Origin: Pezicula radicicola
Lineage: Eukaryota > Ascomycota > Leotiomycetes > Helotiales > Dermateaceae
Direction: 5' to 3'
DNA: 64,000 nt
Assembly (NCBI GenBank): GCA_003008705.1
Contig: PDUO01000001.1
Span: 1,419,694-1,483,693 of the forward strand
The notes beneath the pieces are model-generated. The model had not been told where the DNA came from. It saw nothing but the letters and a program-made list of their open reading frames with translations, and did not search any database. Made by a program: the position numbers and the translations under genes. Shown in pieces: positions 8,064 to 54,231 of this stretch (position 1 is the first letter of the stretch; every line of letters begins with the position of its first letter).

Positions 8064-11000
8064 TTACCTACTGGGCTTTAAGGTCTCCCAACTGCCCATA
8101 CCATTATCACCATCATCATCCCCCAGAAGATCTGTCGGTCTTCTAGGGAGTGGTGGTTTAGGGCCTTCGTCATCGGCTTTCGTCACCGACTTTCTCCCTG
8201 CTCTTCGAGGTTGTGGTGGTGGCGGCGGAGTTTGTGTGCGATCGCTAGTTCCATTGTGTGTTTGTGAAGTGATGCCACCAGTAGCTCGACGTGGGGGAGG
8301 CGCAAAGTCCGTATTATTAAGTGGCATCTTCCCTGAGCTTTGAGGCCGGTGTTGTAAGGAAGAAAAAGATAGGGTTGGCGAGGAGGTTGCGGAGGAGGTT
8401 GGTGTTATGCCTGTAAGATGTACAGGTTTCCGGGCAACGGGCGGCGCGGATTTCTTAGAACCGTTTGATGTGGTAGAAAGAACACTATTAGGGCGTATAA
8501 TCGGGGGCGGTAAGGGTTGTGATCTGGTTGTTGCTGTTGTAGTTGATGATAATCCTCTCGTAAGAGCGGGAATGCCATTGGCTGAAGGGTCGAATGGTGG
8601 AGGTAGTTTGCGTGCACCGTTCGAAGTTGGAGCGGCACGACTTTTTGTTGAGGTGACAGAGGCTTGAGAGTCGCCTCGAGGCCGGTTGATAGTCACCCAA
8701 TCTGGTTCGTCGGTTGCGGTATATGGATTTGATGGTCGATGTGGATTCGGGATTGCTCGTCTTTCAGGTGGCTGAATGTTCGAGCGTGCAGGTTGCCCGT
8801 TGTCTAACCACCACTTCCTCCGATCAGAACTCGCTGGTGGGAGACCAGGTTCAATTGGGTCGTAACCGATCAAGTCTTCATCGTCCGTGTCCTCTGATGC
8901 AGCATTTGCTGTCGTTGATCCCACCTCTGTTCGGCGTCTTTCGTAGATTTCGCGGCTAAGAGCCTCGCGATGAGCCTCATCCACAATGGTGACCTCACAT
9001 TGAAAGGTTGCGTACACCGGGCGATGATCAGAAAATCGTAGGGGAGCGCTAGAGTAGTTGATTTGGCGCAAGTTGGCTCCTTTGCGGAGAATTCGATCAG
9101 TCCATGCAGGGATTCTTGCTTTCTCGCTGTAAACGCATTAGTATAGGGAAGACTCGTGCACGAATGACTCGACTCACGAGGTATCATATGTATCAGTTCC
9201 GAGATCAAACTTATACGTAGGCATAAAGGTAATCCTGGCTTCAGAATAATAAGGAAAGGTGAGGCCAGCAACCATCTGAAGATTCAACTTGTCTTATGTT
9301 AGTTTGACGGTCAACGTCAACGGAATTGAGAAACACACCTGGTCATTCTCATATAGTGATTCAAGATCACCCATTTTAATCATTTGTTTTACCCTTTCTG
9401 ATCCTAGCCCAATTCGATAATTGAAGTCACCCATCCAAATGACGCTATCTGACAGATATATTAGCATTTCAATGTCAATGTTCAAAGTTTACTCACCATG
9501 ATCATCTATCCCTCGATTCCTCTGAAATCTTAGTCCGTGATCTATCGTAGTATAATCTCGATTTCTCTCTTCGTAGTTTGCGAAACCTGCAGCCAAATGA
9601 GCCGTGACAAAACAGATCCGCGTATTTGCATAATCCATTCGTATCGCCACGGCACCCTTATTGCCTGCCATGCCAGACATACCAGTTTTTTTAACGCTGC
9701 CTTCCACGTTCTTAATGTTCTGGAGCACCGATGATTTGACGAATATACAGAGGGCTGCACCGACGAGTTGGCCGCTGCGTAGTAGGACGTAATCCTCATT
9801 ACCAGCAGTACGTGCATGCTTATTCAACGTTTTCCGTACGACCTTCTCCCAGGCCTGCTTCCGCGTGGGATCACTATTCATAATTTGCTGAGGGCTTAGT
9901 TCGACAATTTCTTGAAAGGCAACAGCAATGATCTCAGGAAATTGTTGAGAAGATTGAACGTCGGGACACAACCATGGCGACAGATCCTCGTCGATGCCTT
10001 CTGTCCGACCATTAAGGTTAAATGTTCCGCACAATCTATGCGTCGAGAATTAGTATTCTTCTTCCATGACTGGAGCCCAGGGCAGAACATACATGTTAAT
10101 ATTTTGGGAAGATTGGAACTCAGCACTCCGCTTGGTAAGTTCAGCTGTAACGTAATCATTGATCGGATCAAAAAGGTGAACAGGTGTCTGTCCCACAAGC
10201 CTGCCTAGTAGAACATCAATCGTATTTTGGCGGCCTTTATCGGCGAAATTGTTGATATATAATCGAGTAGCACTTTTCCGGGCATCTGCAATGGCACCGG
10301 CAAACGACATTTTGCCGCTTCTAGTAAAGGAAGATTTCAGAGCTCCTGTTCCAGCATAGATCCTCGACAAAGCATCGCCATTATCTGCCCACAAGCTAGA
10401 ATGACGCATCCAAAAGTCAGGGGAAGCACGCTGTCCACGGTGGCCGAGAAATGTCTCGACAGCCATCTGGGAGATAATCGTTTGTATTAGGTTAGTCCTA
10501 TCCAGGCAGTCTAAGCAATTTGTTCGGAAAACTCCCTCTTGTTGCAGAACTACAACTGTTCTCCGATTCTGCTTTCTTTGTGGCTCATCTGCTGCGTCTT
10601 CGACATTCTCGGACAGATAATAAGCAAAACCTTCTGCTGAGCTCTCGATAAGCTGCCGGATCATGCTTGCAGCTTCGTAACCATTCGGCCCCTTGGTTTC
10701 TGCGTGGAAGTCGAATTCTGTCTCTCTTAACATCTGATGATCGTGGGCATTCTTTTCATCGGGGTGGTTTATCGAGCAATGCCTAACTCCATAGCGGTAT
10801 AGGCCTGTCAACTCTGCCTCCCCTGGTTTGGTCTCACTGAGTAGGTTAACCACGTGTACCGCACCATAGTTTTGTTCCAGATCACTGAAATGTTTGTCAA
10901 ATGCTGGCTGAGTCCCTTGCGCAGACCGAGTGATTGTTATCTTCTGCTGCCCTGGGAGCAAACCAGGAGCTTGTTCCCAAAAGACTGGTATAGAACCCCT

Positions 11001-12011
11001 TATCTGTACATAGGAAAAGCAGATTCCTGATGGACTCCAGTATATTGTCTCCGACTCCACAAAATTGGCAACATTGCCATCATCATCAATTCCCCGACTG
11101 TTGAATCTCGTTCCAGCTCTTCGACATGACAGACGTGAAATTAAAGTAAGCGAAGCAGGAAGCCCCGTTTTCGATGCCCGCAACGGGTCGCCTGCAATGG
11201 GTATTGTCATGGTGAGAACGAACCCACGAATGGCAGACGTGAGGATTCGGGAACGGTCCAGCGCCTCCCTCTCGTGTGCTACAAGATGTGATCGAAATTT
11301 GACCAACGGTCCTATCATATAAGAATTCCATAGGAAGGATTCGTCCAAATTTTCTCCATCAAATGTTGACTCTTCTATAGATCTAGAATAAGTGAGCATT
11401 TGGAGGGCACTATTGACGTTGGAATCCTACCTGTCTTGCAATCTGTTCGTTAGATCAAAATCTGTACTGTAATAGAAACTGCCATTGCCCAGCAATTTCT
11501 GCAGCTCAGTAAAGGGTAGCTCAGCGACCGGCTCTCTGCGATTTAGGTTTTGGCCATAGGCATCTTGCCGCTCCACTCCGTAGGGATCCAGATCATCACT
11601 AAATGTATTGTCATAGTCGGAACTGTTCAGACAATAGAAGTCCACGGCGAATATCTTCTCCACTGTTTCTCCAGGCCTCACTGTCGCCACTTTTACTGTG
11701 CCCTTAACCACACAAAGGAATACATCGTTATTGATGGTAATAAGTCCGAGGGTGCCGTGAACAGGTAGTGGGCTCAAAGTTCGATAGTCGCTGAGGTCTA
11801 GGGATGCGACATCTGCAAACTCGACCATACACTTGGAAGAAGCGGCCCCATCGATGGATGTACGGGTGGGAATTCTATCGATTGACGTGAGAGACCCGTT
11901 GGCTATGGAATCAATCGCGGATGAGCTATGACGGAAGATGAGTGCATGTGTGGGCGTCACGAGAGCAATGGAGCGGTTTGGATACTCCCGAAGGAGAACT
12001 CGAATAGACAT
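8064..12011 (-). CDS. Synaptojanin-like phosphoinositide phosphatase (Sac1 + 5-phosphatase)
   Basis: Six exons: complement(11431..12011), (10093..11382), (9497..10035), (9339..9448), (9178..9287), (8064..9126). All phases fit and give about 1230 aa. The N-terminal half is a Sac phosphatase domain with the catalytic CX5R motif CLDCLDR near residues 483-489. From about residue 624 an inositol polyphosphate 5-phosphatase domain begins at CGTFNLNG. It continues with AVAFQEIVELSPQQ, the DNase I-like WMGDFNYRI and a final SDHRPVYA. The tail is Pro/Ser-rich with several PPPP runs that could bind SH3 or profilin-type partners. This is the architecture of yeast Inp51/52/53 and animal synaptojanin, which dephosphorylate PI(4,5)P2 and PI phosphates in endocytosis and Golgi traffic. 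Which yeast paralogue it matches cannot be decided here. Confidence 0.93.
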
Positions 12012-12671
12012 TGCTGTGATATCGAGTTGTATGAATCAGGATCTGCGTAAGATAGGGCCCCTAGCATTTTGTGGTTTTGTTGCATGCATGTAAAAAGAAT
12101 TGCTGGCTTCTGTACTGGAAGCCGAGTATTGTGTGTTGTGTGTTGTCGTGTGCAGCAGTCAGACTCGGATCACGATAAGATAAAGCGGAACAAGGCTGAG
12201 GCTCGTCGAAACGCAAGGCTGAAACTGTAGAGTGATAGGTAGGGTATAGGGTATCTTGAAGGAAAAGCTGTGTATGCGAATGGGAACTAGTTATCCAGAG
12301 TTGTAATACAGAAAAAGTAGGTAGATTTGCATATTAAAGTAAGGTAGGCAGTGAGGTGTATGTGATTGTCTTTGCATCGTTTTGTGACTATCTGATATGA
12401 GGAATAGCCGTCCTCTATTAAGTATGTACCTCCAGCGTTTCCAGCACTCCAGATCATAAGGTCTACCTATCACATGCCCCATAAATGCCTTGCAATACTT
12501 CATAACTCCAACTTGTTATCGATCCCCTTCATCGTTTTGCTGCACCAAACGTACAAGTTCCTTACCCCCGTGCCCAAACCAGCCAGTATACCCCTTAACG
12601 CCCGCTCAAATTAGATAGAATATAGCCCGTAAATGCCGCAAATGATGCACGCCTAACAATGCTGAAGTCCT
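12012..12671. other. Intergenic, promoter side of the phosphatase gene
   Basis: 660 bases lie between the phosphatase start and the stop of the histidine kinase, both on the minus strand. A GTGTTGTGTGTTGT microrepeat lies near 12131-12145. No gene or RNA is visible. Confidence 0.5.
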
Positions 12672-15600
12672 TTATCTGTACCTAGAGAACTGCTCCTTGA
12701 TCATATTTTCGATGTCGAAAACCTTATACGGCTTGGCCAAAAACCTGTGCATGCCAACCTCTTTCGCTCTGTCAATGCATCCGCTCGTTATATCAGCCGT
12801 CACAGCGATGATATTCGTCATATCTCCACTTCGATTTGCCAGCTCCCTAATCTTTGTCGTAGCTTCATAGCCATCCATGTTTGGCCTAGAACGATCGGAG
12901 TTAGCATCAGAATCACAATACTCTTCTTCGTGCCTCAAAAGATCAAGTGAAATCTAGACATGACTTACATCCATATGTCCATTAGGATGACGTTGAAGCG
13001 TTCCGAGAGAGGTCGAGAGAGAGAATTATTGTAGTGCTTCACTGCTTCGACGCCATCAAAAGCCAGTGTGATATCTTTCTTATCATAACCAAGTTTAGCG
13101 AGGGATGCAACAGCGACGCTGCGGTTGATGGCATTATCTTCAGCTATTAGAAACTTCAACGGGTAGTCTCTGGCCAGGTTGGGATTAAACGAGGTTCTTC
13201 TCCGGGCAGAGGCCTTTGTCGGACTCGCTCCTAAAGCTGTTTCGGACGAGATTGAAAAGTCTTGAACAGCCGCTGGAGGAAGACACATTTCCTGACAGGG
13301 CTCTATTTGAGCGTTTGCGCCGGTAGGCGTAACCAAGAGTGGCATCTCAGTTGTACTTGTGATGGGCAACCGAATCAAGAAGCTAGAGCCCTTCTCATTC
13401 CCTTCAGTAGCTGATCTTTCGAGCGTTACATCGCCCCCCAAATTCCTCCGAACGTGTGCTTTTGCGTTGAACAGACTGAGCCCAAGTCCATCTCGTGATC
13501 GACGTATAGAGGTGTCTTCTTGAAAATGTGGTGTGAATAAGTGTTCTTGGGACTCTTGGGTAATACCGCAACCTGTATCCACAACCCAGATCTCAACCAA
13601 TTCGTTCCTTCCCATCCTCACAGTGATGGTGATGGAACCAGTTTCCGTAAACTTGATAGCATTGTCGACAATCTTTTGTAACGAGAAATACAGATGTTGC
13701 TCTTCAGTGATGATGACAATTGGTACCTCCTGCTCAACTTTGAGGTGTATTAGTCTTTCCTGCACCTCACCTCGGGGTCCTTGAGTCTGGACTTCGATTG
13801 TCTCGCCCAGTGTGGTCTGGATACAAACTTCACTCGTCGGATGTTCTCCTCGCAAAGTATCGTGCACAAGTGTTCGCATGAAGTCCCGAATGAATATACG
13901 TCGCCGAGTGGGACTCATCGTTGGCGGTGGTAGATACCGATTTCTCCTAGAAAAATAACTCTCTCCAGGTGACATCTGGCCTGGCATCATACTTCCGGAC
14001 ATGGATATTTCACCTGCTAAGGTCGGAGTTGGTTGTTGCTTATAACATTCGTCTTCAAAATCTCCTTCGGTCATGGTGAACATTTTCTTCAATGGTGGGC
14101 CAGGATGAAAGCCAACCTCTTCGCTTGGCTCACGCCTGCTCTCCAACGATAAGGAGAATTTCCTCTTGGTGTTCGTCCTCTGGAAAACGTCTGTTTGAGC
14201 AGGCGAGTTGCTGGCCTCCAATAGCGTCTCATCATCACTTGATAAAGGCGACTCTGGCATTTCCATATTCATGTCATAGGCATGTATAACATTATCGGCC
14301 GCTTCAACTGCCCGCTTCGAGCTTTCTTGAACAACCTCGATGTGACTTTTGAGATTCGTGAATATCAACTTCGCAGCCGGTTCATCTTGGCTCTCTATGG
14401 CCTCTTGCACGGTCGAATACATGATGTCAAGCATTCCAATAACACCCTGCATCGGCGTTCGCAGCTCGTGCGAAAGACTTCTTGCGTACGGTTTCAGGGA
14501 CTGTGAAGCAGCAATGGCGGATAGCGGTATCAACGGTTTTTGCGTCGGTTGAAGCGGAGGGTCCTTAACAAAACCTCTTCCTTCCAATACCCGCTGCACT
14601 ATCATGTCTTCAAGGGCATGCATAAACATTTCGAGATAGCTCCAACTCAATTTCCGTTTCGGCGCACCCTCTTTCGAGTAGATCAAGCAAAAATGGGCGA
14701 AAGACTTTCCATCTGCAAACAAAGGCACTCCCATAAAAGCCTCCGAACTGAACGGCAAGTTTTTTGTATTGGGATTGTTAGGGCAGACTTGAGAGATTTT
14801 CTCGGGCACGATGAAGACCTTATCATGCTTCATGTGAGCACAAGGAGTGCCATATGCGTGGTATCGATAGTCACGGTATAGTTTCTTGACATCCGTACCA
14901 TTGTTGATATAGAAAGCGACCCCCCTGTACACATCCAAGAGTTAGAAATTATAAAAGTTACGACAAGTTGAACAGTAGACTTCCACAACATGAGCAACGG
15001 TTGGAGATCCGGTGCTCCCAAATGCTGCATAAAGTAGAAAGGAATATACCCATTATTCACTTACATTAAACAACTGCCCGGTTCACCAAGTGCTGGCATT
15101 TCTACAGCACCGTCCTGGTCGTCAACGAGCATGCGCTTTGCCACAAACGAACACTGAGCTCCGGTTATGTCACACATTTCTTCCATCAAGATTGCCCAGA
15201 AGTCATGCGTCGACACCCTCTTCAGCCGGGCCTTGAGATCCACGAGCCGTTCTGTTGCGTTGCTCTCAGGAGAAGGAAAGTACTGTCGCAAGGCGTCTTG
15301 AAAGCCCTCATCACCGCAATGTGTAATGGTATCCTTCTCATAATTCGGCAGGCATAGACTGGTTCTCTCGATAAGGCCTCCTGGCTCCGAGTCCACAGGA
15401 TCTGACGGGCTGTCCTCCTCCATCTTCACCTGGGCCGCCCGCAACCAATCCTCTGGGCTCTTTGTACACCCTCCAGCCTTTGGCCTCGTCCTTGCCCTGG
15501 CTCTCTGAGGTCTGTAGGTCCTGGCTTTCCCCTCATATGCATCAGGGTGTATATATATTTCCTGCATTCCACAACGGCCAATTGGCGTTGTTGCGACGGA

Positions 15601-15708
15601 GGCATATAACAATTGACAGTCAGCCACCGAGTCGTAGCCTCGGGCGCAATGGCGATGAGAGCGAGAGCAAACAATGTCGTGCGGCTCTGATGCAGGGAGG
15701 CTTCTCAA
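12672..15708 (-). CDS. Hybrid histidine kinase (GAF - HisKA - HATPase - receiver)
   Basis: Three exons: complement(15065..15708), (12969..14924), (12672..12885), giving about 937 aa. A GAF-like sensor region spans roughly residues 215-320. The H-box SLSHELRTPMQG has its phospho-acceptor His at about 367. The ATP-binding domain has N-box VDNAIKF, G1 DTGCGI and G2 DGLGLSL. The C-terminal receiver has the acidic pair in EDNAINR, the phospho-acceptor Asp in LMDIWMPNMDG (about 864) and the conserved Lys in LAKPYK. Such kinases feed the fungal phosphorelay through Ypd1. About 270 low-complexity residues are inserted between H-box and ATPase domain. The first intron (140 nt) is long. I chose its ends because they restore SCLMGVAFYINNG. 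The start at 15708 is the first ATG of the open frame; a start further in is possible. Confidence 0.9.
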
Positions 15709-18700
15709 TCGACGACTGTCGTTGGGATCGGGGCGCTATGGGAGTGGTTCAAAGGGTGTACAGTATCTATGTCTTTAGACGGGGTGCAATATGGTCGTAC
15801 GGTTGATGGGAATCCTAGACTGTCGGAATGGAAGGGCTATAGTCGTGGGACATTGGCAGCGCTGTCATCATCAGGACCAACCTCGGGAGTAGCAAACGCA
15901 GGAAGGTAAGGTTAACTGGTATGGAGGGGAGAGTGCTCACGGTTACGAAGGTTTTGGTGGCAGCGTTGAAGGGGCCTCCAGGAACGAACGAGGACGTTGA
16001 CTCGCGTGGGGGCAGTAAAAGCAGAGTTGTGTACGGGCAACAGTATGGCTCTGGCTCAGAGCCAATATGGTTTGGAAGAAGCATGATGCTGCTGCTGCTA
16101 CTGCTGGCTGGGCAAAGAGGTGAATTGTGGCTTGCTATGGTTCACCCAGAGGGCCAAAAGCAGATAGTAGAGGTCTAGATCTTCCTGGATCTTTCTGAGT
16201 GCGGGCTAGGCTCTGCTGACTACTGGGCGGACCCAAATCCTCCAGGGTTGACAGGGGTCTTTTACAGGGCTCTCTGAGGGGCCCGTAGTCACTGGTGTGG
16301 TGGGGCCCGTAGATCATAACGGCAGTGACTGGCCACAGCGAGGCCCAGCCATTGGCTGTCTGGCGGGTTACCAGGGCTATCTTTTTCCAGAGTTGCCGCA
16401 AGCCTGCAAGAGAAGTGTCGTGAGAGGCTTATTAGAGCCAAAGCTGAGCGGGAATCCGGCCTTGAATCCTCGATGGTGCTGTCGATCTAGAACGCTCCTT
16501 CTCGCGACCCTAGAGTCGTTCGCTCCTCGACCCCAAAACACATGCAGATACTTAAACCTTAGCCTTAAAGCAAGGCATCGGCTTTCGGATTTTGGGGGAT
16601 ATTTGGTGGATATATTTGGACCTGGGGGGAGAGGGAGAGTGCACTGTACACACACTCACACGGTAGGGTGCACCGTCATACAGTACGAAGCCTTGGTTCT
16701 TGGTAAGTAGCGTATCTAGGCTTGTAGATTAGCTTGTTCGAAAGTTCCACCGCGTCACCACGTCGCGCGCAGAGAGCAAATAACATTTGTTGTTTGTGGC
16801 TGTTGGTTGCACCGAAGTATCCAAGTAGGCACTCGTACCTGTCGGCTGAAGCCACCACACCGACTCCTAAACTCAATAATGTATCGGCTCGGAGATAGCT
16901 CCACCTCGCCGCATTCCACTTGGTGCAGAACAGCAAAAACATACTTGCTCATACGGTACGCCAGCAGCCAATATACAAATAGCTCCCTCGGGACACACGG
17001 CATTACTTTTGCATTGTTTGCGCTCTGGTGGCCAGGTGGCTTGCCCACAAAAAGAGGGGCACCTTGCTCTCGAAACACTCAAATCGTGACGAGTAGTAAC
17101 ATTCTCACGAGCCACTCGTCACCGCGACACACACAATCTATGTGAAGAAATCAAGGGTCGTCTACAGTCCAGCTCGTCGTTCTGGTACAGATAAACACGT
17201 CAGCCGACGCAAGGTTGCCCTGTCTTGTCTTTGTGCGCATCACTTAGCGAGCCCTGTTATACCGGCAGGATTGTACCATAAGGATTCAATCTACCTTACT
17301 CATGGGTTATAGGGCTGGGCTGTCTCCCTGATGCAAGATGCTGCATAACAAGAGAGCATGCTGTACCTGCTCATTTTATTTGTGAGTTACTAACAATAAC
17401 AATCAGGAAGGAGTCTCTACTTCGTGTACAACATTAGTATGATGTTGGTCAAAGAAGTGCGCCGAATGCGGTTGTTATATTTCTTTTTGTGTGCTATGCT
17501 TTTCCTGACTGCATTGAAGAACGTCAAGATTTTTAGCGGCAAGAATAATTCGTTCTCTGCCCGTTGGACACTATTAGTGTGTAGTAGTCTTTGTCATGAA
17601 CAGTCTTAGCCAGAGACTTGTGCAAGCTTCGCAGGCTAGCAAAAGACTAGCGGCCGCACTTGTAGATAATTCGCTTTATGGGGCCTCGGGGCTCGGGGCT
17701 CTATTACCAATACAACTCTCCACGGGAGCTTTCTTTTCCTGATCCCGTTTCTAAGCTACACTATCAAAAAGCCACTTACCTACAGTAGCAGATTTCAAGG
17801 CTCGGAAAGTCTATCTGCCGATTCATCTTCTAGCCCCACAAGTGAGTAGACCTAGAAGGGTCGTAGGGCTGCTCATAGACTCAGATCGGAAGACTGCAAT
17901 ATATGTAGTTCAAAAACTCTTAAACACTATAGTTCAATTTCCAATCAAACGACTCTTGAGAGCGGTGAAGTGTCTTGAAAGAGAGGTTTCTGTTAATTAA
18001 GGAATGAGCTCACCGGAGAGGTTATGGTCTAAATTTTACTCTTGAGTAAAAAACCACTTGGGAAAAGAACAACGGGACAACAAAGTTACAGATGTCTGTG
18101 CATATTTAACTTCCTTTGGAGAATGCGAATCTGACTTTGGTGCCTGGGGAATTACTGTATCGAGTGGAAACAATATATATGGTCTAGATTTCTCAGTTTG
18201 TTCTATAAGGCCCATATAGACAAAGGTCACGTTGACAGACAGTATTACTGATATTGTTACCTAGAACTTCAGTATTAGCTATTTTATAGGTATATATGTT
18301 TAAAGCAATTAGGGCAAACTACCAGAAACAGGAGCATGATGTGCCTGGAACAGGCCACCACGAGTTCTTGAGCGCGTGGTCTTGGTCTTGTGGTCTTGTG
18401 GTCTTGTGGTCTCGAATTAGGAATAAAGCGGCACTCAAGAGACCAGTTACTACTCCGTAAGGTACTGTACTTTAGTGACTTTTCGGACTTCCTCTCTTTT
18501 ACTTTCTCTCCTAGTAGATTATATCAATCACGGTGAGGCCATCCAAGTTTGGAATGTATTTAATCAATTATATCAATTCGGGATCCAAGACAAATCTAGC
18601 AAGTTATTCAAGGGGTAGGTACAAATGGTACCTGGACAGCTGCCCGGGATGCCGCTTTACATTTGTGGCTTGACACTATGACGCTTTCCCGCCCCAGGTC

Positions 18701-18785
18701 CCTTCTCCGCATTTCAATAGCTTCACGATTCCTCAAACAGCATACAACTAATCAACCACCTAATATGTAACGAACCCTCACCAAG
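15709..18785. other. Long intergenic region between kinase and lipase
   Basis: About 3.1 kb lies between the divergent histidine kinase (-) and lipase (+), so both promoters lie here. It contains a CTGCTGCTG run near 16090, short CA/GT runs near 16650-16670, and a GGTCTTGT tandem repeat at about 18376-18411. Composition shifts toward AT after about 17.3 kb. Small frames show no family signature, and I see no tRNA. Confidence 0.5.
18376..18411. repeat. Short tandem repeat of TGGTCTTG
   Basis: About four imperfect copies of an 8-9-nt TGGTCTTG unit lie head to tail roughly 370 bp upstream of the lipase start codon. This is a simple minisatellite with no evidence of function. Confidence 0.7.
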
Positions 18786-20231
18786 ATGCGCCATACAAGC
18801 ATCTCCTCCATATCAGCCCTCCTTGCGCTTGCGGCCTTCACCAGTCTCACAACTTGCTCTGTTGTCCCGCCTCAACAGCTCCTCGACACGTCGTCTCTGA
18901 CCCTCTCTGGCGAGCGCGATGCCAATATCTCTATTCAGCTCTTCGCTGAGCTTGAAGAACTGTCGCGAATCGTCGATATCTCGTATTGCGTAGGCACAAC
19001 GGGAATCACAAAGCCCTTCCTGTGCGCCAGCCGATGCAATGAATTTCCTAACTTCGAACTCGTCACCACATTCAACACCGGGCCTTTAATGTCTGACTCG
19101 TGTGGGTACGTCGTACTGGATCATGGAATGGGGCAGGACGGACACAGTGGCGAATGGAAGCAAGGGCAAAGCAAGAGACCTGGAAGAATTATCGTGGCTT
19201 TTAGAGGAACATACAGTATCGCAAACACGATCGTGGATCTCAGCACCGTCCCGCAAGAATATATACCCTATCCTGAGGAGCCAGGGAACTCAACTGCAGG
19301 TGTACCACCTGAGGAAGAGAAGCGCAACCATCGATTCTGGGATTGGATACCAAGACCTGGCTTCCTTACCATGAGACGACGAGCTGCATATCAAGAAGCC
19401 AAGGCCCGAGCTCGATGTGCGGAGCACCATGCCAAAGTCGAAGCCGAGAGACTGGAAGAGCCCGAGCGTAAATGTCAAAACTGTACTGTTCACACAGGAT
19501 TCTGGACGAGTTGGCAAAACACGCGATCGGTTATTTTACCTCACCTGATTTTTATGAAGCACAAGTACCCCGACTATAAATTACATCTCGTTGGGCATTC
19601 ACTAGGTGGAGCTGTTGCCGCACTGGCTGGACTCGAGTTTCAGGGAGCAGGCTGGGAGACCATCATTACCACATTTGGTGAACCTCGTGTCGGAAATGCT
19701 GCACTGAGGGATTATATTGATTCCGTCTTTTGCCTTTCTGGCGCTCAGAATGATGGGCGGGGCGAGAGGTACAGACGCGTGACGCATATTGATGATCCGG
19801 TTCCCCTCCTTCCACTCCAAGAATGGGGATATAGAGCTCACGCTGGTGAAGTCTACATATCTAAACCTTCCTTGTCGCCATCCCCATCTGATCTTCGAAT
19901 TTGTTTTGGCGATGAGGACGTGAATTGTATTGCTAGTGCAGAGATTGACCAGTCATGGTTCAATATAGCCAACTTCGACAGGGAAGGTAAGACCCTAGAT
20001 TTGATCAACCAACAGGCTCGAGACGACATGCAGCATGAGAACCTAGAAAGGCGGTGGGGAGTTCCAATTCCTGCGCGGTACAAAATTTGGCAGCTCTTCT
20101 TCGCCCATAGAGATTACTTCTGGAGATTGGGTGTCTGTCTTCCCGGCGGAGATCCACTAGATTGGGGAAAGCCCAGGTATAATTTCACCGACATTGAAAT
20201 AAAGGCTGGTGAGGTTAAGGTGGAACTGTGA
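18786..20231 (+). CDS. Secreted class 3 (fungal triacylglycerol) lipase
   Basis: A single exon encodes 481 aa. An N-terminal hydrophobic signal peptide covers about residues 1-24. The alpha/beta-hydrolase core shows the strand RIIVAFRGT. The nucleophile elbow LVGHSLGG has its catalytic Ser at about 272, and FGEPRVGN is the typical following strand. The catalytic Asp lies in HIDDPVPLLP (about 336), and a His in the C-terminal part completes the triad. An acidic/basic insertion at about residues 160-230 between the first strand and the elbow is larger than in short Rhizomucor-type lipases. Cysteines are paired around CVGTTG, CASRC and CQNC, consistent with disulfides in a secreted enzyme. The expected reaction is hydrolysis of triacylglycerols outside the cell. 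The substrate is not predictable in detail. Confidence 0.93.
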   Translation: MRHTSISSISALLALAAFTSLTTCSVVPPQQLLDTSSLTLSGERDANISIQLFAELEELSRIVDISYCVGTTGITKPFLCASRCNEFPNFELVTTFNTGPLMSDSCGYVVLDHGMGQDGHSGEWKQGQSKRPGRIIVAFRGTYSIANTIVDLSTVPQEYIPYPEEPGNSTAGVPPEEEKRNHRFWDWIPRPGFLTMRRRAAYQEAKARARCAEHHAKVEAERLEEPERKCQNCTVHTGFWTSWQNTRSVILPHLIFMKHKYPDYKLHLVGHSLGGAVAALAGLEFQGAGWETIITTFGEPRVGNAALRDYIDSVFCLSGAQNDGRGERYRRVTHIDDPVPLLPLQEWGYRAHAGEVYISKPSLSPSPSDLRICFGDEDVNCIASAEIDQSWFNIANFDREGKTLDLINQQARDDMQHENLERRWGVPIPARYKIWQLFFAHRDYFWRLGVCLPGGDPLDWGKPRYNFTDIEIKAGEVKVEL

Positions 20232-21703
20232 GGGCAGTGTACGAAATAATATGCATTAAAGGCGAATAAGGCGCTTTTGGGACATTCGAACCTCGAAATC
20301 AACGAAAACAGCTTCTCACACTGGAGCCTTGTACATGATACACTTGTAAATAATGATATTTTTATCTGTAATATACTCATATTCTTCAAGAAAACCGTTA
20401 CTTTTGATTCTGCTTCATTAATCTTGATCATCCTTACCTTTGTGGAGAAATTAGGGTTATCGTTGCTTACTTCTATCTTATACTAGGTTGTAACTTAATA
20501 TTCCTTATTACTACTAAATATCTACCTGACTTTTATTCGAATCAAGCAAAAACTCAAGCTGTGTATCTCTATACACTTGTTTCTACTATCCTAAATAGTA
20601 TTATTTTATAATAGCTACTTATACTTATTAACTTAATAAGTTGAAAAAATAAGCATCCATCTAAACTAATGTTTATCATTGCCGATGTCAATTTTTCTAT
20701 TATTAAATAGTAAGAATGATAATCTGAGTCTTTAACTTGCCTGGTTTTGTGTTGCAGATAGGATCAACCAGAGGAATAGCCCATCAAAGGACAGAGCAGG
20801 GGATTCCACATTCAACTCTGGAAAAGTGGTGGGAGAATACCTTCAGTTGACCTGTGTAGTGTGATACGAAAAATACGTCACTCAACGTGATACTGTGTTT
20901 TGTGGAATTCTGTTATCTCCCACTTGGCATATTACCACTTTTCGAAATCTAGGAAATTTCACCAACTTCGTAAAAATCTCTAGTTATATTTTCAACAATA
21001 CAGGAAGACTTGAAGAGGTAAATATACATGAGGTTTATATATATACTAAATATGTGTGCTAATAAAAATTACAGTTCAAGAATATAGAAGTGCTAGGTTC
21101 TTTGAAGTGAAAAGATTGTAGGGTATAAGGTTAATATACGACATGCCGACAACGAACTTGAGATTAAATAATTATCTAAATGATCTTTATAGGTACCTAT
21201 CTTGCTCAAGCTACCTAATATGCTCTCTTGTTTCATGAAAGTTAGGCAGATGGTGTATATCTATGAACAAAAATGACCCACGAAGTCAAATGTGACTTTG
21301 CCAAATTTGGCAATACTAACATCCATCCCTAGCAACACTCCAGTGGCTGAATAAAATTCATCATCTCCTCACACTTCTCTTATTTCCTTGATTTCCGCCT
21401 TGATTTCGATCTCATAGCCACCATGTTAGGCGTTCTTGAATGAACCTCGCTTAAAAAGGCGAAATGGCCACAAGAGTGACCGTCGCTTAGTACAATGTTG
21501 GATTCCTAGGTTTCAATTCCGTGTCAACACAGCTATGGTTAGGCTTTCTAGACCCATGGGCGCTTAAAAGACGTTTGTGGGTATTCCACTTGCCGTACAT
21601 TAAGAAATGGTCAAGATTCACAGCCGACCGACGGATCTAGGTCTCGTCTCCTCATTTTGTAAAATTTCTAGTCCTTTACCTTCCATTGCACAGAAGTATC
21701 AAA
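20232..21703. other. AT-rich spacer before the Ran-like gene
   Basis: The first kilobase is strongly AT-rich, with many TA-rich words and no credible frame. Composition becomes more balanced from about 21,300, which likely marks the promoter of the gene at 21704. The block resembles RIP-degraded intergenic DNA, but no ancestral element can be recognised. Confidence 0.5.
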
Positions 21704-23271
21704 ATGGCTGAACTTTCAAGGACCTCGGTGACAATGCGCTACCAACATCGTTGCTCGAAAATCATAGCTAGATTCAACCTCGCACTAGTTGGTGACGAGA
21801 ATGTTGGCAAGGTACGTAGATTCGGAATTGATGTCCACAGATGTCTGATATTTCAGCAGAAAACTTTCATCGATCGTCACACTACGGGGGAGTTCAATGC
21901 TCAAGCTCATCTCGATAGTATTTTCGAAGAAAAGGAACAAGAAATCCAGTTTAAGACAGTAGGGCCTCATTTTAATCAAGCTACAGAGTTTGTAATGCAT
22001 GACTGACCATGAGATGCAGACAAGCGGCATTATTCAATTCAATATACGCATATTTTCTCAGCTTAGGAAGAGAGAACGGTTGACATCTGCAGATTGTGCT
22101 ATCGTGATGGTTGATTGTGATTTTATCTCATGCTCGCAATCTATTCAAACTTGGAAGCGTATGTAGTCCCCATGAGACCCTTCCAGCTAAGCTATACTCC
22201 CTAAAATTCTCCAAGTAGGTACTAAAGAGAAAAGATAGAAAGATTAGAAGCACGAGTCCCGGATCTTCCAATCGTCGCCTGCGAAAGCAAGGCAGATCCT
22301 AGGAGCGACAAATATCAGGGACAAGTATATCCTTGCATCTCGTTTCCGACTCTACCATACTTCCGAATCTCGGCAGAGTCTGGATACCAGATTGAGATGC
22401 CATTTCTGTGGCTAGCCAGGAAGCTCATGGAAGATGAGTCACTGGTATGTGATGTCATAACCTTCGACACTCTATTTGTTACCTCGCTAATACTCTCCCC
22501 AAAATAAAGATCTTCGTTGATTTCAAGCCTGTAGATTCGAAAGGCCAAGAGCATCTACAATCAATGGATGACGCCAAAAATGACGACGAGACTTCTTCCA
22601 ATACATATTCTGAGCTCGGCTCTCTCATAAATGATCTTGGCAACCTCAATTTGCAGGAACGGGGGAGGCTCTCTTCACCGCAAAGAGATGCCAGCAACGA
22701 TGATGCTGCCATGACACTGGATTCAACACCTAAACAACAGCCATGCAGCCCCAAAGCAGCACAAACAAACCCTGAAGTTACAGCGACAAAGCCCAAGCTC
22801 AGGAAACTATTCATTGTGTGCATCCATTGTACAAGAACAATCCTCATTCAATCCGTTACGTCTACTCCAAACTTCAAAGCATTAAATTGTATCCCAGGCA
22901 ACAGATCTGTACTAGGAGCTTCTACGTGTAGAGCTTGCGAGAGAGAGTTTAACAAGAAAAATACCGAGCGTGCTAGGCCTGAGGTTTCTTTCGATATTGA
23001 GAATGATGAGATACTTGGAAAATTGAGAATTTCAAAGTATTTCTTCAGACACTCTGATATGTGGCTGGCTTTGGTGAGGATTTGTGGAGAGGGATTAACT
23101 ACTCTGACTGCCAGGGGAGGTTATATACGTCATATCAATCTTTCTGTTCTTACAAATGAGTTGACTGGTACCTGCCGTGTCCAGGGTGTTAATCCACAAG
23201 CGATGAGGTCGAGGAACTTACCGGAGGATCAATTGCTTTTATCTTATATACCAGGTGATTTCCTATGTTAG
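21704..23271 (+). CDS. Ran-like pseudo-GTPase fused to a Cys-containing C-terminal region
   Basis: Five exons: 21704-21811, 21860-21991, 22062-22158, 22239-22444, 22510-23271, giving 434 aa. Residues 24-184 align along Ran with nearly identical spacing: FNLALVGDENVGK (P-loop), RHTTGEF, LTSADCAIVMVD, PDLPIVACESKAD, ISAESGYQIEMPFLWLARKL and a following IFV. Every nucleotide motif is altered. The P-loop GK is followed by Lys instead of Thr. The switch I segment is about 7 residues shorter. The DTAGQE position reads GPHFNQ, NKxD reads SKAD, and SAK reads SAE. GTP binding and hydrolysis are therefore unlikely (inference). The remaining 250 residues replace Ran's short acidic tail: a Ser/Asp-rich linker, then CIHC (285-288) and CRAC (321-324), a possible zinc site. 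Four introns carry normal splice sites and the frame stays open, so it looks maintained. The acceptors of introns 1 (CAG/CAGCAG) and 3 are ambiguous by a few residues. Confidence 0.75.
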
Positions 23272-24129
23272 AATTCGGAACTGCTGGTTGTTTTGCATTA
23301 AGTATTAGGCGCTTTTGGAGGGAGGATTTATATGGAAGATTTTTTTATTGCCGTGGTTTAGTGTGTAACCTCCAATTTGTTTTCATAGTTCTGTTTATTA
23401 TTTTCTGAAGATTACTACACATTTGAACATTGAAAGTCTATTTGAGAATAATTGCATGGCATCTTTGAACTCCATTGGCTAACTTAAGATATTTAAATCA
23501 AGTTGGATAACGGTAGCTACCTAACTCATAAATACTCAAGGTTTTAGTCCTCGCTCCTCTAATAGGGCTGGTAGATGACAAAACCTTTGTTGGGGAGCAA
23601 AGGAGGGATATATTGTTGTATAAAAGGCATGGACCTCCATATTCCAATTCTCTAAAGAAAAGTTACACCCACACAGGTATTAGATGAAACAAAACTACAA
23701 GGCACTGTAGTCCCAAAAACTTCTATAGTCCCCTCTTTTTCCCCACTCCTCTCCCTGGAGAGCGAAGCTCCTAAACAGAAGGTGAATTTCAAAGAATGAA
23801 GATATAAACCTTATCATTGAGGAGGCAAAAATCCATGATAGTTTAGGGTGGCAGTAGACTTGATATCACTAATAATATAGTACTTTCAAATGACTGTTAT
23901 AGAAAGTAGATTTACCCGGATAATAGGTCGCTCCAAGCTAACGGATTCTCAATTGCTGAACAAATAATTTTTTAAGCGAGCATCAAAAAAGCAAAAACAT
24001 ACAACAAAGTCCTAGTCTGCCCAGGAGAAGGAACGTGGCAGTCCCTAGTAAAAGACTATTTCCCACACAAAATAGTGATATTATTTCTACCCAGATCGAA
24101 ATGGTAGGTAGAGAAGAAATACAGAAATC
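23272..24129. other. Convergent AT-rich intergenic region
   Basis: This is the 3' space between the Ran-like gene (+) and the membrane-protein gene (-). It is AT-rich with no recognisable gene, RNA or repeat. Confidence 0.5.
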
Positions 24130-26263
24130 TCAGTTGAAGTGAGGAATATATGTTGACCATGAAGCGACCTGATATACTTCCGTTGGCAAATGAGCAACAT
24201 TGATGAAGCACTCAACGACTAAGTAAACCCTAGCTAGTACGTATATAAAAATTAAAAAGTACATGCAGATTTTAAGAAGTAATGGGAACCGGAGCTTGGC
24301 TATGGAAAAGAAAAAATTGTCGTCATCCCGTCGTATATCTTCACTTAGATACAAGATCCTAAGCTAGAAAAATAGCGACACTAAGATTTTCCTTATAGTG
24401 CTTCTTTCTACTCCTGGCGTCTTATCTTCTTCAACAAGTTCCTCGAAGTTTATCGCATTATAAATTAATGCTAACAATGGTCCGGCGCCGATAACCACCG
24501 ATGCGGAGATTCTCCACATAAATTGCTGAGAATAAGTAGGGAAGTGAGTATTCCATGCAAGCGCATGTAGACCCCCATAGATGAATGCAGCAGCGGCTAG
24601 TCCAGACTGCACCAGAAGATCATCCAGCGAAACTGAAGAAATTGGAGGACGATTAAGGGCCCTTGGCTGGACTGAAGAATAGACAAACAACCTTTCTCTC
24701 AATGGGCGAGGGTTTTGTGAAAGGATTCTTAGGTGCCTCAAAACTCTGTTCTCGACAAATCCATCCTCGGTTGCCCTGAAAAAGGTCCCTGGGATTATCT
24801 TGTGACGACACAAATGCTTTCCTTCATTTTCCATCGTGCCAGAATTCCAAATTGCACCCGCACGAAGGCGACTTTCGTGAGAATCCTCGTAAAACTTGTA
24901 ATTCGAAGGAATAACTTTCCAATGAGTACCTGCTAACTCTTCGCGATTGGATTCGATATAAAAAAGTGCAATCAACTCGTCCGCTTCTCGGCCACGAACC
25001 AGTGTTGGGCGTTCTACATCAAAAGGTTTATCCCACCATAATAAATAGATGGCGACAGTACAAAGTGCGTGCCCAAAAGTATTGAGCTCTAGTAAGCTAA
25101 TTGGAAGTCCATCGACTAGGCGGGAAATACATTGACAGACAAACCAAAGCGCTTGGACACAAACCAGTGTTTTTGTGAAGGCACTAGCTTTGCTCTTCTG
25201 GGCTATTTCTTCTTTGCTGAGGTCTGGTATTAAATGAGGGTTGTCATAAACAGCCATGCGAAAGTAATGCATGTCAAATGTCCATCGTTTTTCCGGAACA
25301 GCAAGAAAACTTTCTTCCTCTTTTAGATTAGTAATGTCCAAAGCATAACCGCCCATATTAGCATAGAACCCATGGACTAGCGTCCACGTATGTCGTTTTG
25401 ATACATTAGAGGTCGGGCTCTCGGTTGGGTACTCAGATAAATGGCCAGACTAACAAACTGCACTTACATCTGGAAAATTGCTCATACAATTCATAGGCTG
25501 AAAAGAAGCCTGGCATTCGTTACGAGGAGACGAGACCCCTTCTGGTTGACCTATGAGCGACCAAGGTTCTTTTGCAGGGAGCGGTAAAGATTTCGTGGAT
25601 ATCTGTTTCAAGTTAGTCTCTCTAGAGTTTGTAGCGAATTAAAACAATCATAGAATGCTACACACATTGCCAGTACTGTAATTGAAGTGGTTGTCGACCC
25701 GAGGCCCAGGAGACCCCGACAAGTGCCGTTCAGGTTGTGAGGTGTTCTGAGATTCTATTTGAGGGAGCTCTACCGAGTATCGCGGTAGATCAGTATGCTT
25801 GAAACGAATTTTTAGTTAGAGCTTGTAGCTTAACCACGGAAGTAGAAAGTCAACATACGTGCTCTTTAGATGAAGTTTCTAGGACTCGTCTATAGCATAT
25901 TAACCCAGTGACTTTCAGACTTCCCAGCAAGCTTCGAACTCGTCTAAAGAACTCTTGAGACGAAGATGGCGGGGTTTTAAGGCCAAAGTGGCGATTATAG
26001 ATCCTGCAAATCTCCTTTGCTTCTGATCTCTGGTTCCAAGCCGTATAGGCAACCAATTCTGGTGCAATAAGGCCCAGGACCAGCCACCCAAGTTTCCTCC
26101 ATGACTGTGTCGAGAGAGGCCATCCATATCTTCGACGGCCATGATGCCACGATTCATGTTCGGGAATGTTGAGATGAACAGCGCTCCAAACGCACAAGGA
26201 GATAGTGATTAGACATCCTTGCACTAAGTCCCATGTGCCACGAGTCGTAGGATTAGGGCCCAA
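24130..26263 (-). CDS. Multi-pass membrane protein of an unnamed fungal family (5' end unresolved)
   Basis: Five exons can be joined in frame: complement(25859..26263), (25666..25797), (25468..25602), (24412..25419), (24130..24363), about 637 aa. Features seen widely in this fungal family are present: a first hydrophobic segment followed by AVHLNIP, then WRKLGWLVLGLIAPE, a long polar loop and TWTLVHGFYANMGGYA. A helix ending YLLWWDKPFDVERP follows. The C-terminus has ARVYLVVECFINVAHLP and WSTYIPHF. I know of no established function for the family. The reading frame of the first exon is open upstream of 26263 but has no ATG. The nearest ATG (26304, good context ACAATGG) is in another frame, so either a 5' intron is missed or the start is broken. 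Introns 3 and 4 have weak splice sites. Confidence 0.75.
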
Positions 26264-27474
26264 GACACTGTATTGGTGCCGTTTCCAAAGGCCGTGAACA
26301 CCATTGTACGTCCTTTGCTTGAGATTTGAGGATTTGAGGATTTGAAATATTGGTGAAGGAGAGAATGATTAGGAAGGCTCGAGGCTCGACGGCATGAAAT
26401 ATTTGTGAAAGAGAGTAGGAAGGCGCAAGGCTGTGGTCTGGAAATGTTGAAGTGACGTGCTATTCCTGCATATTACCGATGCATCGAGACGACATGTTAG
26501 GCTGCAGCTCCAAATTCACTTCTCGCCTACGACTTTCGGGGCTCGCTACAAAGTCTTATTACAAGGCAAACGAAAACCCCAAAACCAAGAAAGAAAATCC
26601 ACAAATGGCTACTAACACATTTCCACAGAAGATATAAAATCTTTCTACACCCAAAAATGAAAATGAAGCAAATAAGAAGAAGGGGAAAAAACCCTTCCTC
26701 TGACTCGTTGCATACCTACCCATAATAAATTTGGCAAAAAAAGATATATCGCAAAGTCTCACGCTGGAACTCGCATCCAGATCTTGGCTAGTAAAGTTTT
26801 ATTGCCATATTCTACTATTAAACTACGTGAGCTGGTTCGTGTTTGCTTGTTTTGATTACAATGTTGTAATTTAGGATTATGTAGTCGAGTAAGGAGCGTT
26901 GATGCCTAGCACCGACATGATATTCCTCACTAACTCGCCTTATTAGTCACTTGCTGCCTGCCCTTTATTCTGCCCAAAGTACAAACTCAAAATCAAATAC
27001 AAACTACAAGATCTTATTCACCACACTTTTACAAAGCGTTGTCTACTCCTAGGTTGACCCCTCTACTACAGGGATAGAGACTGGAATGAGTAAAGCAATC
27101 GAGATGATCATTGGACTTATTTGCCATCCCTCTTCACTATAAGACGGATAATCTTGACTAGTCTCAGTTAAGTGTCCATTTGGATTTTTGCTTTACTCCT
27201 CTCACAACTAAATTTCTCACACGCCTAAAAATTCGAAAACAATCACCACAGCACGCATACTTCAACCCCCCAACCCCCCAACCCCCCCATCCGCTAGTCT
27301 AACTTTTGCTCTTGAAAAACAATAAAAATCAAAAATCAAAACTCTAAAACACCACAAAGCTAGCCAACCAACCAAAATTCAAAAAGTAATTTTAAGCAAA
27401 GTGTTTCAGTAGTATAGATTTAGGTAAGAACGTCAGTTTAGGAGAGACTCGCTACCCCTCGCTACCCCTCACTA
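26264..27474. other. Intergenic region with C-rich tract, left of the MITE
   Basis: No gene is visible. A direct repeat of GAGGATTT lies near 26320-26345. A C-rich tract lies at 27263-27288. CGCTACCCCT is repeated at about 27450-27470 next to the transposon end. Composition drifts to AT after 26,600. Confidence 0.5.
27263..27288 (-). other. G-quadruplex-type tract (C-rich on + strand)
   Basis: Three runs of five or six C separated by AA, followed by seven C, are seen on the + strand. The minus strand therefore has at least four G runs with 2-nt loops when the long runs are split, which can fold as a quadruplex. No regulatory role is shown. Confidence 0.5.
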
Positions 27475-27522
27475 CAGTACGTGGACAAAAGTCTGTCGTG
27501 TACCCCTATTTTACACCAAAAC
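27475..27522 (+). repeat. Left terminal inverted repeat of the MITE
   Basis: 48 nt starting CAGTACGTGG and ending ACACCAAAAC. It is complementary to 27883-27930 with three mismatches. Confidence 0.9.
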
Positions 27523-27882
27523 TCATACCTAACACTTCAAAGGTTTATAGTAAAGAAGGTATAATTAATTAAAGTCTTTATACTAGATTTATTTATTCGA
27601 TAGTTAAATATATTTTTCTATCTCTATATTAAAATTATAGGTAACTAGGATTAATTAATAGAGATTAGAAGTAGGAGGAGTATAGAATTTACTAGTTTTA
27701 TACCTAAATTCACTTAAAAATTTACTATCCTAAATTATTTACTATTTCCTATAATAACTATTAGATATAATTAAAATCTAATATAGAAAAGTCTACTTTA
27801 AATAATAAAAATACTTACTAGTTAAATTTTTAGATATACTTATAGCCTAAGTTAAAGTTATATAAGTAGATGTACTAAGAGT

Positions 27883-27930
27883 GTTTTGGTGTAAAATGGG
27901 GGTACACGACAGACTTTTGTCCACCCACTG
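27883..27930 (-). repeat. Right terminal inverted repeat of the MITE
   Basis: 48 nt starting GTTTTGGTGT and ending CCACCCACTG. It is the inverted partner of 27475-27522. Confidence 0.9.
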
Positions 27931-28139
27931 TATATCTCGCTACAGATCCGAGCCCCCAAACCCTCAAAAAAGTACTCCACCACTCACTCACCACAGCACA
28001 ATAAACCAACCCCCCAGTCTCAAGACCTTAAACACTCCTAGATATATCATTACCCAAAACCTACGCAATATGATATCCCAACCATTACTCCATACCGCTA
28101 CCTTAAAACCCCAAAAAAACAAAAGTTTATATTTAGAGG

Positions 28140-28213
28140 GTCCTGCTATGGGAATTGCACCCATATCTTGGCGTTAATACAGTCGCCACGCTCTCCTATT
28201 GAGCTAAGCAAGC
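28140..28213 (-). pseudogene. tRNA-like relic (possibly tRNA-Asn derived)
   Basis: On the minus strand a cloverleaf can be drawn. The acceptor GCTTGCT pairs with AGCAGGA at six of seven positions (the first pair fails). The D-arm is GCTC/GAGC, the anticodon stem TGGCG/CGCCA, and the T-arm ATGGG/CCCAT with loop TGCAATT. The anticodon loop is ACTGTATTAA, ten bases instead of seven. It looks like a CTGTTAA loop with an insertion, which would point to Asn (GTT). The expanded loop, the broken first pair and the unusual T-loop argue for a pseudogene. The 3' side is not followed by a clear oligo-T terminator. Confidence 0.55.
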
Positions 28214-28307
28214 TTTTTGTCTTCTGTTTGTTTCAATAGGAATGGGTAAATCGGAATATGTAGGAGAGTTCTGAGTCAGCTTGAGGGAACGATTGTGTGG
28301 TAGCTTA

Positions 28308-28326
28308 GGGGAGGGGAGGGGAGGGG
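28308..28326 (+). other. G-quadruplex motif (GGGGA)n
   Basis: Four runs of G separated by single A form an ideal quadruplex core just downstream of the secreted-protein gene on the opposite strand. No function is inferred. Confidence 0.6.
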
Positions 28327-28582
28327 CTAGGCAGCAATGACACTAAGTACCTAGGTACCTAGGTAGTTTGGAACTAGACCGAAGATACCTGAGGTACATA
28401 TTTACCATGAAGTAGGTAATTATCCTATTTGAAAATGAATTGCGATGTCTTTGTTGTCAAGATACTTGAATTAAAGGGAAGATATTATATCACATTAATT
28501 TCTTCGAAAAAATCCCAAGATAAACCTCCTACACATCCTCAAACCTCAACTTAAAGAGCTAAAGTGCTTGCTACCCTCCTTC

Positions 28583-29236
28583 TTACGCGACAGCGCTTGT
28601 GAAGGAACCGCTTAGAGAACCACCATCTCCTATAACACGCAAATCGAAAGTCAGTTTACTGATTTTATGAAGTTGCAAAGTTGCCCAAGATTCGAGGGCA
28701 ATGAGCAATCGATTCTAAGAAGGGAACCTGTTCTGAAAACAGGAATACGTACCAGGAGGTTGACACTCAGTACCGTAACCATACGGAACAGGAGGTTCGA
28801 TGGGATAGCAATAAGTCCTAATACCAATGCTTCCAAAGATCTCTTCTTCAGGTGCTCTGCTTGAAAATCAGCTTACAGTTCACCATCCACTCCTTTCTAA
28901 AACAAGAAATTCCAGAATGAGAAAAACCTACAAAGTTTCCTCAACACTCAACGTAGAAGAAGTCTTATTCCACTGGAAAGAAACAGCAGTATTGCTGCAA
29001 GGATATGAGACGGTAGGATCGACAACACCGTTATATATACATGGCGTAGTAATGTTCGTAGTTGGGTCGTAGTAAGTGAAGGTAATTTCTGGTGGGTTTG
29101 TATTGGTTCCTGTTGGATTGAAGAGAGTGAAGCGTCCGATGTAGAAGGTTGTTGGGAGGGCTCGTGGGTATGAGGTAGGAATGGCTGTTGCGAGGGATAG
29201 GAGTCCGGAGATGATGAGAGGGATAGTTTTTAACAT
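28583..29236 (-). CDS. Small secreted cysteine-containing protein, AA1-like
   Basis: Three exons: complement(28932..29236), (28753..28856), (28583..28629), giving 151 aa. A signal peptide of about 18 residues (MLKTIPLIISGLLSLATA) is followed by a beta-rich region. FYIGRFTLFNPTG, ITFTYYDP, CIYNG and SYPCSN recall the AA1-like domain of small fungal secreted proteins. Four cysteines remain in the mature protein, two before and two after the first intron, and could form two disulfides. The short C-terminus is Gly/Ser-rich. The first acceptor (GCAG at 28857) was chosen because it alone keeps the frame into TYCYPIEPP. Small size, secretion and location beside repeats fit an effector-type protein, but no activity is known. 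Confidence 0.75.
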
Positions 29237-30270
29237 GATGAAATATAAAGGTACCTATGGAGTTTTTGATCGGTTTTTGGTATTATGACACTAACACGTA
29301 CACTGAGAATGTGGTAATGGGAGGCCGTACTTATACTCGAGGCCGTATCTCGTCTGTTCAAAACAGACATTGCTATTTCGTATGCATGCAGTAAGGCGAG
29401 CCATGATCAACTACTCAAAGTAACCTCTTACGAGCTGCGAATGGCCCTGTAAAGCCAGCTGGAATTACGAGGATAACCCCTATAGGACGAATGACGTTGT
29501 GAGGACAAGTGTGCAGGTACAGCTATCAACAGGGCTGAGAGGATACCCTGCCATAGTACGCTCATAGATCATACGAGATAACCAGTAACGTCATACGAAT
29601 TCCAGACTCCAAAGAGACAAGCATTCTCCACGCGATGCCCTTGCCGCTACATTTCCCCCTCAGTATTATTTAGATGACTTTACTTTAGAGAATCGAAAAT
29701 CAGGACAAAAAACAAGGGGAGGAAATTTGCGGCGTAGAAGACGAGCAACGCCTTCGTAATGCTTCTCGGGACATGCAAATATTTGGAACTATGCACGCAA
29801 GCATGCAAAGAGCAATTGGCTAGTGCTATGTGCGACTCGAGATAGCAAAAATAGAAATGGAATCAAAATATTAACGAGTACGAGTGCTACATAGCAGAAA
29901 GAAGCCACGAGAAAGAAGGACTGGTTCAACGTTTGACATAATGGGCACAATGGGCTTATGCCTGATTACTGACTGCTGAGGCTTCAGGTACGGAAAGGTA
30001 CGGAGGTAGCGAGATCGGAGAGATATGCAACAAAAAAATGAGCAGCCCAAAAATGTAAGCATCCCTTTCGAGTACACGTAAACGTGATAGCGACGTCGCA
30101 GAAGAGATGAGCGAACATTCCCTCGCCAAAGTTAGCACCCACATCACATGACCCACTAGCGCGCACCAAGAAATTTCTCAAATCAGCCTCACAAAAGTTT
30201 CGCGACAATTCCGCATCTCCAACTTCAACCTCCGACAACCACTAAGGAAAGGAAAGACCATTCATCAACA
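29237..30270. other. Divergent promoter region: secreted protein (-) and eL36 (+)
   Basis: This stretch of about 1 kb contains both 5' regions. Small frames here carry no recognisable domain. No RNA gene is seen. Confidence 0.5.
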
Positions 30271-54174: not shown

Positions 54175-54231
54175 GGTGATGATGTACTTGACGAAGGGGT
54201 GTAAAGCGTTTCGAAAGCGAGTGGTTGACCA

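Follow-up and report, generated by a model that had tools for sequence, protein, structure and literature searches.

A Ran-derived pseudoGTPase with a new cysteine-containing tail, predicted in the genome of Pezicula radicicola

The 64,000-nucleotide stretch of contig PDUO01000001.1 of Pezicula radicicola analysed here (assembly GCA_003008705.1, positions 1,419,694 to 1,483,693, hereafter the window) carries at its positions 21704-23271, on the forward strand, a five-exon gene whose product is a strongly diverged paralogue of the small GTPase Ran, extended by a long tail. This gene arose by duplication of an intron-bearing Ran gene, and, judged by its motifs, it encodes a GTPase homologue that has lost its catalytic motifs and thus qualifies as a pseudoGTPase. 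Few eukaryotic proteins are as conserved as Ran. We lean, with slightly better than even confidence, towards a Ran-derived pseudoGTPase that would act as a fixed, nucleotide-independent docking scaffold.

The gene was read from the DNA by frame and splice signals, together with the known Ran protein, and the model was set before the introns of the Ran gene of the same genome were inspected. The frame is open throughout, and the product has 434 residues, or 435 if the upstream CAG of a tandem acceptor is used. Its exons are:

21704..21811, forward strand: exon 1, with an N-terminus 14 residues longer, beta1 and the P-loop GDENVGK, ending at donor GTACGT
21860..21991 (start 21857 or 21860), forward strand: exon 2, with alpha1 (RHTTGEF), a shortened switch I, beta3, and GPHFNQ for DTAGQE
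22062..22158, forward strand: exon 3, with the remainder of switch II, beta4 and alpha3
22239..22444, forward strand: exon 4 (206 nucleotides), with LPIVACESKAD, ISAE and PFLWLARKL
22510..23271, forward strand: exon 5, in which IFV closes the Ran homology, a polar stretch covers about residues 187-278, and the C-terminal part contains CIHC (285-288) and CRAC (321-324)

All four introns are GT-AG, although their earlier description as good introns, in a reading made from the sequence only, was generous: the donors GTACGT, GTATGT and GTATGT are strong, whereas that of intron 2, GTAATG, is weaker and lies at a site not used in Ran, and the acceptors are TTTCAGCAG (tandem), CTCAG, GATAG and, for intron 4, AAAG. 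The tandem CAGCAG acceptor of intron 1 (21812-21859) falls inside the former P-loop codons, where the choice between its two sites adds or omits one glutamine behind the Walker lysine (GKQKTF).

Descent from Ran is supported by protein similarity as well as by gene structure. In a phmmer search of PDB sequences, residues 23-186 matched Ran at 8.4e-21, and the first non-Ran family among the best 60 of 143 matches was Rab7, at 1e-5; the Pfam Ras model matched the product above its cut-off (3.2e-7). An ordinary, intact Ran gene of 216 codons was found on another contig (C76; L014), which, with the introns described below, bears out the sequence-only view of a duplicated Ran. This own Ran is identical to a yeast Gsp1 chain at 155 of 167 aligned sites. 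By BLASTP it shares 55 of 172 residues (32%, E 2e-21) with the paralogue, whose Ran-like part spans residues 21-184, and in the domain alignment 54 of 160 (34%). The paralogue scored no closer to its own Ran (65.9 bits in phmmer, filters off) than to human (76.1) or yeast Ran (73.6), as is expected of a very long branch. At the four sites where the own Ran differs from both human and yeast Ran, the paralogue agrees with human and yeast at three (83, 86, 120) and with the own Ran at one (60), too small a sample to date the duplication by, and one in which site 83 depends on the placement of one surplus residue.

In the own Ran gene, introns follow codons 22 (phase 0), 53 (phase 0), 104 (phase 1) and 173 (phase 0). 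Introns 1, 3 and 4 of the paralogue match three of these in site and phase (22/0, 104/1, 173/0), Ran's second intron is absent, and the second intron of the paralogue is unique to it; the chance of at least three of four introns coinciding is about 9e-7 if 480 sites are assumed equally likely. Exon 4 has 206 nucleotides in both genes and aligns without a gap, and a six-frame search matched this exon with the own Ran at E 4.0e-6 and 4.6e-6. The shared introns thus identify a DNA-level duplicate of Ran, and since three of Ran's four introns are retained, a processed retrocopy was rejected. The join of exons 4 and 5 falls at Ran's own join, which supports the AAAG acceptor. Searches of the genome (61.0 Mb, 152 contigs), which score only their best candidates, found no further copies of the gene or of its tail. 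With the own Ran as query, 33 matches comprised pieces of Ran (six-frame), exon 4 of the paralogue, and others that we take, from their scores, to be ordinary small GTPases; no second Ran was recognised among them.

The motif changes and Ran landmarks reported in the sequence-only reading were all confirmed on the DNA, including the G4-to-G5 spacing, which is the same as in Ran, and the CIHC and CRAC pairs of the tail. The P-loop reads GDENVGKK, with T24 replaced by lysine (GKQK with the first of the tandem CAG acceptors), the switch I region is 7 residues shorter than in Ran, GPHFNQ takes the place of DTAGQE without a gap, SKAD that of NKVD and SAE that of SAK, while PFLWLARKL and RHxTGEF are retained. 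The changed residues of G1-G5 are therefore T24K, D65G, G68F, Q69N, N122S and K152E, with T42D as aligned beside the gap, and the motifs are not intact in the way of a working Ran GTPase. That all five are altered, as had been stated, is true; GxxxxGK, K123, D125, S150 and A151 are nonetheless kept. Of 23 nucleotide- and magnesium-contacting residues, ten are conserved (G17, D18, G22, K23, T25, F35, K123, D125, S150, A151), and G19, G20, T21, T24, K38, Y39, T42, D65, A67, G68, Q69, N122 and K152 are lost; K38, Y39 and T42 adjoin the switch I gap, and a different gap placement could bring a serine to T42. Most of the magnesium/gamma-phosphate half of the nucleotide site appears to be gone and a tail gained, in agreement with the proposed loss of GTP dependence. 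We infer from the loss of T24, D65, G68, Q69 and N122, and probably T42, that the Ran-shaped domain would no longer run a magnesium-dependent GTP switch; residual GDP or GTP binding may serve stability.

Conservation is unevenly spread over the domain. By structural element, in human Ran numbering with boundaries that we drew ourselves, the residues kept are 4/6 in beta1, 4/8 in the P-loop, 8/11 in alpha1, 1/23 in switch I plus beta2, 3/6 in beta3, 2/15 in switch II, 4/12 in the beta4 region, 2/22 in alpha3, 5/12 in beta5-G4, 1/18 in alpha4 with the basic patch, 5/9 in beta6-G5, 2/5 at 153-157, 10/11 in alpha5 and 3/9 in the linker. Taken together, alpha1 and alpha5 keep 18 of 22 residues versus 6 of 78 in switch I/beta2, switch II, alpha3 and alpha4/basic patch (p 2e-11, descriptive). 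A review of Ran names the P-loop, switch I, switch II and the basic patch, in the passages we draw on, as the regions contacting karyopherins and RCC1 (PMC7264121), and within these the paralogue keeps 4/8, 4/14, 2/14 and 0/4 residues, respectively, the basic patch at 139-142 having changed from HRKK to ISFP. Neither switch I nor the basic patch is thus kept as karyopherin binding would demand, and the regions that serve contacts with karyopherins, RCC1 and RanGAP are mostly rewritten. The earlier suggestion that the fold might still contact karyopherins or RCC1-like partners fares poorly on these counts, and we do not favour such a surviving contact; docking by the alpha1/alpha5 side would fit better.

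This retained side corresponds in part to a surface that Ran itself uses. According to the portions of a study of Ran-GDP relevant here, the C-terminal loop 171-180 lies between alpha5 and beta2, with the contacts Leu174/Arg166, Glu175/Asn55, Phe176/His53 and Asp171/Arg56, and residues 181-186 contact alpha1 at Leu31 and Arg29 (PMC9885160). Among these linker-packing residues, the paralogue keeps R29, R166, L174 and F176 and has D at 171, and does not keep L31, H53, N55, R56 and E175. We propose that the alpha1/alpha5 side, together with the LxFV at which the C-terminal linker begins, would form a permanent docking side that binds a new partner constantly and independently of nucleotide, and that the tail would carry a second contact. 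A more specific version, to which we give somewhat less than even credence, would see a maintained pseudoGTPase of the Ran branch joined to a novel and maybe metal-binding module, with the karyopherin side free to vary, the alpha1/alpha5 side kept, and a niche on an alpha-solenoid partner like that of the kinetochore protein CENP-M.

Several comparisons argue for purifying selection somewhere along the path since duplication, which says nothing on the present day. Over 141 aligned codons, identity with the own Ran is 75, 80 and 51 at codon positions 1, 2 and 3, on an alignment built on protein and thus slightly biased towards a selection result. In 400 neutral runs to an equal count of identical residues, the excess of position 2 over position 3 reached at most 27 versus the observed 29, and 1.75% of the runs were stop-free. 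In 1000 neutral runs to equal third-position identity, the mean number of identical residues was 16.6 (maximum 38; observed 54) and that of identical second positions 52.8 (maximum 79; observed 80), with a mean of 5.7 stops per run and at least one run stop-free. Under neutrality, a copy of the paralogue's frame would acquire a first stop after a median of 0.015 substitutions per site, and in 99% of cases by 0.093 (substitutions only). Codon usage, trained on 14 long open reading frames of the window that are not all confirmed genes, gave the whole coding sequence a score of 22.7 in the chosen frame versus -3.4 or lower in the five others (own Ran, 45.2), and exon 5 a score of 5.8, where 500 random sequences gave -28.7 +/- 8.9 and never exceeded 3.3. 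Repeat-induced point mutation (RIP) was rejected as the source of the divergence, the gene being without a RIP-like dinucleotide shift.

In place of the acidic DEDDDL-type end of Ran, about 250 residues follow the IFV. We found no similarity between this tail and the Ran C-terminus beyond IFV, the alignment being no better than with shuffles (p 0.27), and a remnant of Ran's C-terminal helix was accordingly rejected. The sole cysteine-type Pfam match of the tail is zf-BED, at 17.4 bits (13.3 for the C-terminal part alone) versus a curated cut-off of 20.6, which a BED-type zinc finger thus does not reach. The spacing of its cysteines suggests that the tail may bind zinc. A leucine-rich, export-signal-like LINDLGNLNL (residues 220-229) is given no weight, such a pattern occurring in 31% of shuffled tails. 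A search of 5.8 billion proteins returned 6046 candidates for the whole protein, 336 for the tail and 50 for the Ran-like part, none at E up to 1; even the Ran-like part retrieved no Ran, which suggests that eukaryotic proteins are scarce or missing in this collection and makes the absence of relatives there uninformative for fungi. In viral contigs, 56 stretches fit a pattern, and none was related to the tail.

Some observations weigh against our interpretation. The groups of regions in the 18/22 versus 6/78 contrast were picked after the alignment had been seen, with boundaries of our own, and when the P-loop, switches, G4, G5 and basic patch are pooled, 14 of 47 residues are kept versus 40 of 120 elsewhere (Fisher 0.72); selective erasure of the switch parts is not shown. 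The model requires an AAG acceptor at intron 4 and a GTAATG donor at intron 2. The view of a maintained gene, which the codon-position and open-frame tests support, is weakened by exon 4, which alone gives a weak codon-position signal (34/68, 36/69, 31/69), and by exon 5, whose last 156 codons lack codon-usage support, scoring -14.1 versus -5.3 for one reverse frame that has 8 stops (a length without a random control). The weaker splice sites of introns 2 and 4, the exon 4 signal and these last codons would all suit a recently dead gene, that is, a once-used Ran paralogue now drifting, whose frame is still open because little time has elapsed. We consider this unlikely, given 434 open codons, a chance of 2.5e-7 for an open run of 253 codons at the base composition of exon 5, the early first stop under neutrality, and the absence of a RIP-like shift from the gene.

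It is less probable still that two units have been mis-joined here, with exons 1-4 as a decayed Ran-like piece and exon 5 as a separate orphan gene: the AAG acceptor and a tail with no relative found and no likeness to the Ran C-terminus would agree with this, but exon 5 starts at the site and phase of Ran's intron 4 and reads IFV for EFV before any tail, and one frame continues stop-free through it. Ran T24N is a dominant-negative mutant, and the paralogue, in which T24 is likewise replaced, might be pictured as a decoy in the Ran cycle, or as a brake on it, which fails to load GTP correctly and sequesters RCC1 or a karyopherin, in a genome that has an intact Ran and RanBP1-domain matches. 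The poor conservation of the P-loop, both switches and the basic patch (4/8, 2/14 in switch II, 4/14 in switch I, 0/4) makes this improbable in our view. Most improbable of all is a small GTPase that still binds nucleotide with unusual motifs; it could draw on the kept GxxxxGK, K123, D125 and SA of SAK, the 10 of 23 contact residues, and the T42 position, where aspartate aligns next to the gap in switch I and a serine would come to lie under a different placement, yet T24, D65, G68, Q69 and N122 are lost within ungapped stretches. A Ran-derived scaffold that docks independently of nucleotide thus remains the interpretation we favour.

Compared with Ran/Gsp1, the paralogue is alike in sequence, three intron sites, exon 4 length, RHxTGEF of alpha1, PFLWLARKL of alpha5 and the LxFV linker start, and differs in its mostly rewritten switches and basic patch, the missing acidic tail and the new tail. 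Two known G domains with similarly degraded motifs offer a parallel for the scaffold role, as they serve as structural subunits. The kinetochore pseudoGTPase CENP-M has lost the P-loop glycines and the switch I region and has a diverged DxxG, and its authors compare its predicted binding to CENP-I with that of Ran on importin-beta; a cysteine tail is not mentioned for it in the portions of the paper on which we rely (PMC4080450). The G domain of the fungal dynein light intermediate chain (LIC), as described in the relevant part of its report, is diverged in G1-G5, nucleotide-free and bound to a larger partner, but groups with Ras/Rab and has the dynein heavy chain as that partner; the pseudoGTPases compared there (LIC, CENP-M, CheY) are placed nearest Rab and Ras (PMC4359372). 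The pG1 domain of p190RhoGAP is likewise a pseudoGTPase domain within a larger protein, known from animal studies, with Ran descent not suggested in the sections of that work drawn on here (PMC5593906). Drosophila Ran-like genes are Ran duplicates evolving faster than Ran, but the nuclear-transport duplicates of that lineage are, in the part of the study cited, mostly RNA-mediated and enriched in testis expression, unlike the intron-bearing paralogue described here, which is no retrocopy (PMC8645118). In the corresponding extracts of a powdery-mildew survey, 33 small GTPases including Ran are reported, with family sizes that are not abnormal, and a Ran-like fusion is not mentioned (PMC4195978).

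As to the surroundings, a Pfam scan of the neighbours gave Lipase_3, 2EXR, P450 and a sub-cut-off F-box, with three of seven matching no family at an E-value of 0.01 or below, and no link to the paralogue was seen among them. Downstream, on the opposite strand, lie long open frames at 24364-25449 and 25850-26368, neither of which matches a Pfam family with E of 0.01 or lower. Farther along are a 2EXR-family protein (53293-54240, reverse strand), an F-box-like stretch just below cut-off (56056-57267, forward strand) and a P450 piece (62331-62897, reverse strand), and Rfam places a tRNA gene at 28140-28213 (reverse strand) and a 5S rRNA gene at 51669-51788 (forward strand). In 2-kilobase steps, the G+C content is 0.385-0.431 across 20001-30000, which holds the gene, versus 0.450-0.522 across 2001-20000.

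PseudoGTPases are a known group, and one descended from Ran with such a tail was not found among the matches listed in open-licence literature, which is weak evidence of novelty. If kept, a Ran-derived pseudoGTPase would show a transport switch emptied of its switching while some of its surface is retained, and it yields a prediction as to the side of the domain that would bind.
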